64,000 nt of DNA from Clostridia bacterium (GTDB lineage Bacteria > Bacillota > Clostridia > UBA1381 > UBA9506). Made by a program: the position numbers and the translations under genes. The notes under the pieces are model-generated. The model saw only the letters and a program-made list of their open reading frames with translations. It did not search any database and was not told the origin of the DNA. Shown in pieces: positions 12,349 through 39,113 of this stretch. How positions within the stretch are numbered: position 1 is the stretch's first letter; every line of letters begins with the position of its first letter. The stretch lies in the NCBI GenBank assembly GCA_017546245.1, contig JAFYXI010000023.1, positions 1 to 64,000 of the forward strand. Reading direction: 5' to 3'.

Positions 12349-12386
12349 AAAAAGACAGTAAAAAACTTGTTTTTTACTGTCTTTTT
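12349..12386 (+). terminator. Terminator of the transketolase operon
   Basis: A stem of about 17 bp (AAAAAGACAGTAAAAAA with its complement) closes a CTTG loop and ends in T5. Confidence 0.88.
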
Positions 12387-12409
12387 GTTTAGGGATAGCA
12401 AAAGACAAT

Positions 12410-12446
12410 TAAAAAAGAAAAACATCGGTTTTAGACGATGTTTTTC
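12410..12446 (-). terminator. Terminator of the creatininase-family gene
   Basis: A perfect 11-bp stem (12417-12427 with 12436-12446). The U tract is on the minus strand side (12410-12416 is A-rich on plus), so it ends the leftward transcript. Confidence 0.8.
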
Positions 12447-12547
12447 CAAATTAATATATTAAATACTTAATTTTTAACAGTTAACTTATGTTTTTTTGTT
12501 AATAATATTATTTTTGTCTTTTGCGCTCTGGGCAATTTTAACATCCC

Positions 12548-13342
12548 TTATTTATTTTCAGCATTTACCATATCAACATACTTAACTAATTCTTCTACCA
12601 TTTCGTCAGCAACAAGCTTTCCTAATTCAGGGGTAGCAAGCTCCGGAAAGCCCATAACTCCAACCTCGATTTCAGGTCTCTGAAAGATTTCCTCAACAAC
12701 ATACGGATGGTCAATCTTTTTCTGACTTGTTGCATACCAGTCAGGGTCAGTACGCATCATTTTTGCTGAATACGGCTCGTCTATGCAAACATCGTCCTGA
12801 ACCAAATCAGGTCTCCAGTGCATCATAAGAGCTGTTTCTACCTGACCTGCGTGAATATCGCGCTCAGGCTGCTGATTAAATAAATCAAGCCAGGTCTGAG
12901 AAAGCTCAAAGCACTCAATCATCGAAATGGTTACTTCTTTGGCAATTTGTTTATCACGTCTTAAAAGCATCTGAAGAGCGCTCTTAACAGCTATAGTATT
13001 GTCTGTTCCGCCATGACCTAAGAAAATTATAACATTTTTAAATCCTGTGCGTATAAATTCAGAACAAATCTCGGTAAGATATGTAGCAAATACGTTAGGA
13101 TTAATGTTAATTGTACCTGTTAATTCACCGCCAGAAAATGAATAGTTAACTGACGGTGCAACAACTGCATTTAAGCGGTCGCCTGCCTGAATAAGCGGCT
13201 GAACTGCCATATGTATATCGGTAGTGAGTGGAAGATGATAACCGTGCTGTTCAACAATAGCAACGGGAATTATTATAGTTTTACAGGTTTTAAGTGTTTC
13301 TTTAAGGTCGCGAACACTCATTTCGTTAAGAAAATATGCCAT
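12548..13342 (-). CDS. Creatininase family amidohydrolase
   Basis: The protein is 264 aa. It has the family metal motif EQHGYHLPLTTD (Glu, His and Asp ligands), the FLGHGGTDN segment in place of the common GNGGN, and DIHAGQVETALMM with a further His and Glu. Members hydrolyse creatinine or cyclic and linear amides, for example formamides in mycofactocin and riboflavin-type pathways. The Gly-His-Gly-Gly variant and the sugar-operon setting make creatinine an unlikely substrate. The start ATG has AAGAGGAG upstream. It is the last gene of an isomerase/oxidoreductase operon and also has its own promoter. The exact reaction is unknown. Confidence 0.8.
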   Translation of the reverse strand: MAYFLNEMSVRDLKETLKTCKTIIIPVAIVEQHGYHLPLTTDIHMAVQPLIQAGDRLNAVVAPSVNYSFSGGELTGTININPNVFATYLTEICSEFIRTGFKNVIIFLGHGGTDNTIAVKSALQMLLRRDKQIAKEVTISMIECFELSQTWLDLFNQQPERDIHAGQVETALMMHWRPDLVQDDVCIDEPYSAKMMRTDPDWYATSQKKIDHPYVVEEIFQRPEIEVGVMGFPELATPELGKLVADEMVEELVKYVDMVNAENK

Positions 13343-37221: not shown

Positions 37222-37224
37222 GTG

Positions 37225-38640
37225 ATGAAAAAGAATAAAAAAGCATTGCGTTATTCAGTAAACTCCTCTGTTATTATAGTGGGAGCAATCATTATAACAC
37301 TTCTTTTAAATGCTGTTTTAGTAACTTTAAATGACAGATTTTCTTTGGAAATCGACTTTACCGAGGATGGCATTTATGAACTGACAGACACTACAAAAGA
37401 GCTTTTAGACAAGCTTGAAACTGATGTTGAAATGATAATGTTTACAAACGGCACCCAAACCGAAACGGTTGATATGTTAAAAACGGTGCTTAGCAAATAT
37501 ACACAGCACAGCTCTAAGCTGTCTGTAAGAGAGATTGATTTAGTCAAATCACCGTCAGATGTTACCGCATATAAAGAAGTTATCGAGGCGGATAAATTTA
37601 CTGTCGGTTCTTTGGTGTTAAAAAGTGCGAATAAAACCGAATTTGTAAGCTCAGCGAACTTTGTTACTACGGATGGATACAGCAATATCGAACGTTCTGT
37701 AACATCAAAGCTCGTGAATTTTGTAGACGGAATGTCGTTATCAGAAATCACGTTTACAAGTGGTCACGGAGAGGAAAAAGCAAGCTCTACCCAAACGGTG
37801 CTCGAGACAGATGCATATAGAATCGCAACGCTTGATACCTTAACGCAGGATTTTCCTTCAGATAAAAATTCTCTGGTTATAATTAATGCACCACAGAATG
37901 ATTTTTCGGCAGAGGAAATAGAAAAGCTTGATGCATATTTAGACCGCGGCGGAAATGTTATGATAGCCTTTGACCCGCTGATAGAAACAAAGCTTGAACG
38001 TTTAGAAAGCTATTTACAAGCTGACTGGGGTATTATCCGCAGTAACAACATAGTTGTTGATCAAAAACAACAGATAACAGGTACTCCGTATTCTATACTT
38101 CAGTTTACAGACCACGACATCGTAAAGCCTGTTAAAGAAGAAAGCAGATATGTTGTTACATCGTTCTCTAACAGCTTAGAAATCGCTCCTGAAGTTCCGC
38201 AGAGTGTAACAGTTAAAGAAGTGCTTACCACAACGCAGGATGCAACAGAAACGAATATAGAAAGCCTTTACGGCGGTGTAGCAATGCCTGATGCAAGAGT
38301 TGGCAAATTTAACGTTATGGTTGCGGCAAGCCGTGATAACTATATTATGGAGGACAACAAGACATTTACCGGTCACCTTGTTGTGTGCGGTTCAGAGTCG
38401 ATGTTTAACTCAGTTATTTTAGAATCGCGTTTTGCAAATGAGGATGTATTTTTAAATGCTGTAAACTGGATGAAAGGTTCTGACTCGGGTATATCTGTAA
38501 GAATTAAACGTATGCCGGGCGGCGCTTTAACAATAAGTCAGGGACATTTCTGGACTTGGTTTGTTATTTTGGTAGTAGCAGTTCCGTTAGGACTTTTAAT
38601 TTCTGGATTAGTAATTTGGTTAAAAAGAAGATATAAATAA
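37225..38640 (+). CDS. GldG-like ABC exporter auxiliary protein
   Basis: The protein is 471 aa, anchored by an N-terminal helix (SSVIIVGAIIITLLLNAVLV) and a C-terminal helix (WTWFVILVVAVPLGLLISG), with a large extracytoplasmic domain between them. FTEDGIYELTDTTKELLDKL and FTSGHGEEKA are typical of the GldG/ABC_transp_aux family. The start is either the GTG at 37222 or the ATG at 37225, with GGCGGTGG upstream of both. It completes the three-gene exporter. The DUF4340 protein that often follows in Clostridia is missing. Confidence 0.88.
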   Translation: MKKNKKALRYSVNSSVIIVGAIIITLLLNAVLVTLNDRFSLEIDFTEDGIYELTDTTKELLDKLETDVEMIMFTNGTQTETVDMLKTVLSKYTQHSSKLSVREIDLVKSPSDVTAYKEVIEADKFTVGSLVLKSANKTEFVSSANFVTTDGYSNIERSVTSKLVNFVDGMSLSEITFTSGHGEEKASSTQTVLETDAYRIATLDTLTQDFPSDKNSLVIINAPQNDFSAEEIEKLDAYLDRGGNVMIAFDPLIETKLERLESYLQADWGIIRSNNIVVDQKQQITGTPYSILQFTDHDIVKPVKEESRYVVTSFSNSLEIAPEVPQSVTVKEVLTTTQDATETNIESLYGGVAMPDARVGKFNVMVAASRDNYIMEDNKTFTGHLVVCGSESMFNSVILESRFANEDVFLNAVNWMKGSDSGISVRIKRMPGGALTISQGHFWTWFVILVVAVPLGLLISGLVIWLKRRYK

Positions 38641-38764
38641 AAAGGTGATGTTAAAAAACTCTGGAACGCAAGAAAAGAAAATAATATATAATATCAGTGA
38701 AATAATTATTTTACATTATTTGTATTAAGGGAGAAAAATCGAATTTTTTCGATTTTTCATAAAA
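38641..38764 (+). other. 3' flank of the exporter operon with a small AT hairpin
   Basis: No gene is seen. GAAAAATCGAA (38733-38743) pairs with TTCGATTTTTC (38748-38758) around a T-rich loop, which may end the exporter mRNA. TATAAT at 38687-38692 has no good -35. Confidence 0.5.
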
Positions 38765-39050
38765 TTTAAACTTTTCTTGCTATCAACAAACTTCGCCACT
38801 CGAGCGTCGAAACACACCTGCCGTGTTCAGATTTTCTTTACAAGAAAGAAAATCGTTCACGTTAGCAGGCGGTTTCTCCTTTTCATTCAAAGGCACTTGC
38901 CTTTGAATGATGAAGGAACAGATGCGAAGTGAGTAAAGTGGTTGGCATAAGCCGACCACGCAAAAAACGGAGCCATCTGTGACGTTATACGCCTTCGGGT
39001 AACCCAAAGCTAAAGCTTTGGCTCAGTTTGTTAATTCCAAAGCTTTTTTC
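38765..39050 (+). ncRNA. Candidate structured RNA or repeat element with terminator
   Basis: No supported gene. Many complementary segments can be paired by eye. Stem 1 is GAAAC (38809-38813)/GTTTC (38872-38876), CCTGC/GCAGG, CGTG/CACG and GATTTTCTTT/AAAGAAAATC, stacked. Stem 2 is a 13-bp hairpin (38883-38910) extended by CCTT/AAGG. Stem 3 is GTGGTTGGC/GCCGACCAC (38938-38959). ACTTCGC (38790-38796) can pair with GCGAAGT (38924-38930) to close stems 1 and 2, and ACAGATG (38918-38924) with CATCTGT (38974-38980), giving a pseudoknot or an alternative fold. It ends with AAAGCTTTGG/CCAAAGCTTT plus T6 (39012-39049), a terminator on the plus strand, preceded by a competing hairpin CCAAAGC/GCTTTGG (39004-39021). 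A non-coding RNA or a mobile interspersed repeat are both possible; a promoter was not found. Confidence 0.45.
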
Positions 39051-39067
39051 CTATCCCCTAACAAAAC

Positions 39068-39113
39068 AAAGGTGGCTTTTAAAAAGTCAATTGACTTTTT
39101 AAAAGCCACCTTT
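39068..39113. terminator. 46-bp perfect palindrome, terminator of the valS operon
   Basis: Bases 39068-39090 are the exact reverse complement of 39091-39113, giving a long hairpin between the structured element and the DUF1292 gene, with T-rich flanks on both sides. It should stop transcripts from both directions. Confidence 0.8.

Follow-up and report, generated by a model that had tools for sequence, protein, structure and literature searches.

A previously uncatalogued, multi-copy folded element in the genomes of uncultured gut Clostridia

Bacterial genomes carry several kinds of short repeats that spread without coding for anything themselves. MITEs, ERIC, the BOX and RUP repeats of pneumococcus and bcr1 of the Bacillus cereus group are, as general accounts and the abstracts of the papers on them describe, short, non-coding, intergenic, foldable and modular sequences present in tens of copies. 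Group IIC introns associate with terminators, and their structured sense strand lies immediately 3' to a hairpin. Elements of the IS200/IS605 type with their palindromes and the REP/RAYT systems have in common a folded single strand, the absence of target-site duplication and extragenic palindromes. Here we describe an element, E, that shares these respective traits with each of the three groups. It was found in a 64,000-nt stretch (hereafter the window) of contig JAFYXI010000023.1 from a Clostridia bacterium, in which a structured, gene-free segment at 38765-39050 had been pointed out from the letters of the sequence as a possible new non-coding RNA or mobile repeat. That suggestion was right in outline, while its borders, strand, pseudoknot and internal terminator proved wrong or unsupported.

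Layout, fold and sense strand of the element

In the window, the intergene between the end of a plus-strand gene (38640) and the end of a minus-strand gene (39130) is almost wholly occupied by a single unit, which reads on the minus strand as hairpin H, spacer and E. Homologous copies, their alignment, folding and the strand call from wobble pairs place E itself at 38644-39058 on the minus strand (415 nt) and the unit including H at 38644-39110, so that the segment of the original prediction, over which the list of open reading frames indeed holds no long frame, is the inner part of E. In the sense direction E starts with GGGGATAGG at 39058 and ends with CATCACC at 38644. Hairpin H (39071-39110, without an assigned strand), found by a terminator scan, is a perfect inverted repeat of the 18-bp type flanked by an A-run and a T-run, and the T-rich spacer TTTGTTTTGTTA (39059-39070, minus strand) that joins it to E is conserved among copies within one genome. 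At the other end, 3 nt separate E from the stop codon (38638-38640) that closes the convergent plus-strand gene in the list of open reading frames (37222-38640, 472 aa), which adjoins an ABC transporter operon.

The fold on the minus strand is closed by an outer helix, P1, whose 5' arm (39034-39058) pairs with the 3' arm at 38644-38668, the two arms covarying in the alignment. Within it, GCAAGAAAAG (P2 5' strand, 38771-38780) pairs with CTTTTCTTGC (P2 3' strand, 38668-38677) over ten pairs, most of them double-changed, and AACAAAC (P3 5' strand, 39026-39032) pairs with GTTTGTT (P3 3' strand, 38785-38791) to form the first core helix, in which 98.1% of cells are paired in the core alignment. 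The second core helix, P4 (39004-39021, CCAAAGC...GCTTTGG), has double changes in all six pairs. This pairing had been read as a competitor of a terminator at 39012-39049; it holds as a conserved hairpin, and the competition, along with the riboswitch-like switching derived from it, finds no support. The internal terminator is also lost, because its part at about 39037-39058 pairs with about 38644-38665 as P1 across the family. The terminator-like hairpin of the locus is the one at 39071-39110, outside the segment first described.

Folding of the stretch is real. The region 38647-39060 reaches z = -12.1 on the minus and -12.5 on the plus strand, a level matched by none of 100 shuffles. A whole-element alignment of 48 sequences shows P2, P3 and P5 again and again, with numerous double changes, and in a core alignment of 58 copies 98.2% of cells are paired, as against 31-44% in controls with slid alignments. 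Double-changed cells number 151 in the core, whereas shuffles average 37, and 0 of 500 shuffles attain the observed covariation. The conserved fold had been read on the plus strand, yet consensus folding favours the minus strand (-93.7 versus -79.4 kcal/mol), and the non-Watson-Crick cells on that strand comprise 169 G-U against 30 A-C, a more than fivefold excess; one core pair is G-U in 38 of the 58 copies. Since double-stranded palindromes alone would yield about equal counts, the asymmetry identifies minus as the folded strand. The strongest conservation lies in the inner core of E and not at its ends. Judged from the aligned copies, the fold of E would be under strand-specific selection, with minus as its predicted sense strand.

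The 415 nt of the window copy exceed the base form of E, which measures about 215-260 nt. In a DNA search of the window genome, the two ends of the stretch were matched separately, and a shorter sequence joined the two matches; the base element accordingly measures about 250 nt, and the window copy is about 185 nt longer. The additional 185 nt constitute the long P5 domain (38799-38983, own strand not assigned), which replaces a short GGCGTAC/GTACGCC hairpin, and the helices first noted belong mostly to this rare, large domain. The stem at 38809-38876 and the hairpins at 38883-38910 and 38938-38959 recur in other copies that have it, and the helix ACAGATG/CATCTGT (38918-38924 with 38974-38980) is kept by double changes (GCAGAT/ATCTGC in loci L299 and L300, ACAGT/ACTGT in L094). 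The supposed closing helix ACTTCGC/GCGAAGT (38790-38796 with 38924-38930), on which the pseudoknot depended, does not hold in L081, where TTTCGC faces GCTAAGT, or in L297/L299, where CTTCACC faces GCGAAGC, and the fold therefore has no crossing helices.

Six copies with the long P5 domain are known (the window, two each in genomes G002 and G001, and one in G016); they form two sequence subfamilies, and their common fold has double changes in 18 of 62 pairs, with a sense strand that could be either of the two. The domain always sits at the tip of P5 in place of the short hairpin and occurs only inside E, which argues against an independent element. Other hairpin-rich inserts of about 80-130 nt occur at different junctions of E (L021, L025 and L026 in G000, L065 in G006, L042 in G028), and such variety across copies indicates that E tolerates the exchange of peripheral domains. 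The window also contains a core-less relative of E at 12353-12548, with plus as its sense strand and an H hairpin of its own (AGACAGTAAAAAACTTGTTTTTTACTGTCT), after which AGGGATAG is fused straight to the P2 domain and the 3' end of E; P3-P5 are absent, and the relative, like E, lies immediately ahead of a convergent gene's stop. Tandem pairs of E, a few nucleotides apart and with the second E in place of H, are seen at L103, L071, L073, L088, L196 and L238. Beside remnants of E in G000 and G002 (L017 at about 1205-1270, L086 at about 1590-1640, and L103) stands a separate repeated hairpin, CGGGAGGG..CAGA.AC.CTCCCCTACGATAATG, which is probably another repeat family.

Copies, placement at gene ends and movement

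Copies were counted with a covariance model (R1) of the 111-nt core, which finds about 25 in the window genome and between 1 and 33 in each of 39 out of 61 related genomes. Across the class, 291 genomes were sampled, and the 44 that carry E belong to many family-level groups. Among the genomes in which the covariance-model search did not find the core are the close relatives G003, G004 and G005; such an absence is soft because most of the assemblies are incomplete MAGs. Where records with the core bear a name, they are MAGs under the label Clostridia or Oscillospiraceae, many coming from ruminant guts, and E forms the terminus of many contigs in gut Clostridia assemblies. Four contigs of the IMG/VR viral catalogue (L307-L310) carry the core. 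Rfam 15 gave no relevant match for the window, three copies or the stretch alone at either gathering or permissive thresholds; plasmid and phage records left E unmatched, and literature searches by sequence and topic, whose coverage excludes figures and subscription papers, found no description of it. E is thus a previously uncatalogued multi-copy folded element of uncultured gut Clostridia genomes. Two of the checks put forward with the original prediction were run: the search of the host and related genomes returned many copies with conserved ends, the mark of a repeat, and the covariation analysis returned compensatory changes, the mark of a structure.

The placement of E is strict. A convergent gene abuts it in 96 of 114 copies, only 1 of 115 has divergent genes on its two sides, and where the neighbours are in tandem one orientation is preferred (33 versus 15). 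A median of 5 nt separates the 3' end of E from the stop codon of the convergent gene, most values falling between 0 and 14 (63 copies). A riboswitch or leader would precede a gene on the same strand and of one constant class, and this reading was rejected given the convergent downstream neighbour in those 96 copies. On the 5' side, a strong hairpin precedes 53 of 79 copies, compared with 3 of 313 random control stretches. In the window genome, hairpins of the H type lie mostly beside E, with at least one standing alone, and H was accordingly not taken for a generic terminator sequence. By its sequence H looks like a bidirectional terminator, and we infer that H and P1 terminate transcription.

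Several comparisons bear on movement. At the window site, the sibling genome G002 lacks E, whose place is taken by an ordinary terminator and a different gene; the convergent neighbour protein is 91% identical. At two other orthologous intergenes, the copies in G000 and G002 differ in subfamily or are oppositely oriented. Furthermore, seven of the eight loci with the element in G193 agree almost completely in H, in the 14-nt spacer and in the core, and near-identical sets of copies are also found in G111 and G307. These differences between siblings, together with near-identical copies at many loci, indicate that E moves, and the H, spacer and E common to the G193 loci indicate that H and E travel together. 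The ends of the unit, GGGG(C/A)TGTAAA and TTTACATCCCC, are inverted repeats, both present in G193 and less pronounced in the window copy. No sign of a target-site duplication was seen: the flanks of the young copies in G193, G111 and G307 have an A-run before and a T-run after the unit, as around a bidirectional terminator, and no direct repeats. A likeness between the 3' end of E and the 3' arm of H was considered as a target duplication and rejected; a copy's own H gives no better match (18.7) than those of the genome's other copies (16.3), so the likeness is a feature of the family and not of the locus. Five G307 copies (L326-L330) are nearly identical except in the outer stem of H, where both arms change together (GTGGCTG/CAGCCAC, GGGACAG/CTGTCCC, GGGACTG/CAGTCCC); this suggests that the hairpin is kept perfect by selection or by hairpin-templated correction.

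Possible modes of spread

We consider it probable that H and E together are a non-autonomous mobile element that is recognised as a folded single strand and inserts at terminators. A trans-acting enzyme would use the conserved P3-P5 core to recognise the folded minus strand, present either as RNA or in the form of single-stranded DNA, and the unit would be placed in, or would replace, a bidirectional terminator just past the stop codon of a gene. Its own hairpin H and its complementary ends would keep termination intact, so that insertion would be nearly harmless. We infer both the transposition in trans and the recognition of the folded strand. Among the candidate enzyme families Y1, IS256 and reverse transcriptase, none tracks the copy number of E across genomes. 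The Y1 transposase (PF01797) is absent from G001, G002, G008 and G012, which hold 9-24 copies and include some incomplete assemblies, and RVT_1 reverse transcriptase is absent from G001, G006, G011 and G016 (9-26 copies). Of these, G011 and G016, with 25-26 copies, have only weak Y1 or IS256 matches. Such absences, too, are soft in assemblies that are for the most part incomplete. No autonomous version of E was found among the loci examined.

The inverted ends, the MITE-like number and scatter of copies and the concerted variation of H stems even among the young G307 copies would also suit a classical MITE, of which a DDE transposase needs the ends only and whose inner fold persists for a different reason or through hairpin-correcting template switching. 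This is a possible, though clearly less likely, account: target-site duplications are not seen, the inner core rather than the ends is most conserved, and template switching predicts no wobble asymmetry, in contrast to the bias of G-U over A-C on one strand. The same asymmetry, the strong covariation and the strict position 3' of genes could instead reflect a structured RNA that serves the host, free-standing or derived from a 3'UTR on the minus strand, regulating mRNA ends or acting in trans and often duplicated. We regard such a role as unlikely, since close relatives (G003, G004 and G005) are without E and copies turn over, with sibling intergenes holding different subfamilies or orientations, varying neighbour genes and near-identical young copies. 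Slightly less likely still, E could be active as an RNA and steer its own spread, its conserved P3-P5 core and P2 domain leading a recombinase or some other enzyme, supplied in trans, to terminator hairpins; if true, E would represent a new class of mobile elements, RNA-guided or RNA-mediated and built from exchangeable domains. Descent by reduction from a terminator-targeting retroelement of the group IIC intron type, with reverse transcriptase supplied in trans, would explain why E lies directly 3' of a hairpin and T-run on its own strand, an arrangement we liken to that of these introns, but is improbable given that G011 and G016 hold their copies without reverse transcriptase and that the Rfam searches, by which the catalytic domain V hairpin was also judged, gave no group II family among the matches to E. 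The reading as no more than an intrinsic terminator of unusual length whose stems arose by chance, to which the hairpin and the position between convergent genes would be suited, is refuted by homologous covarying copies across the class.

Relation to known families

As a non-autonomous mobile element, E would be a widespread family spanning many family-level groups of one class, with a strand-selected fold and exchangeable domains, confined strictly to the space from stop codon to terminator. With it one can test how such an element can stay neutral by means of its own terminator, and which form is recognised, RNA or single-stranded DNA.

Compared with MITEs, ERIC, BOX/RUP and bcr1 as general accounts and abstracts portray them, E differs in that its inner core dominates conservation and its wobble pairs favour one strand, and in its own terminator-like hairpin, its placement within a few nucleotides of stop codons and a target duplication that is not seen. 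It is far smaller than group IIC introns, convergent with its neighbour gene, and abundant in genomes without a reverse transcriptase. Relative to IS200/IS605 palindrome elements and REP/RAYT it is larger and has several covarying domains, and Y1 transposases do not follow its copy number. E behaves like MITEs and the ERIC, BOX and bcr1 repeats and has a preference for terminators like that of group IIC introns, and it fits none of the families tested.
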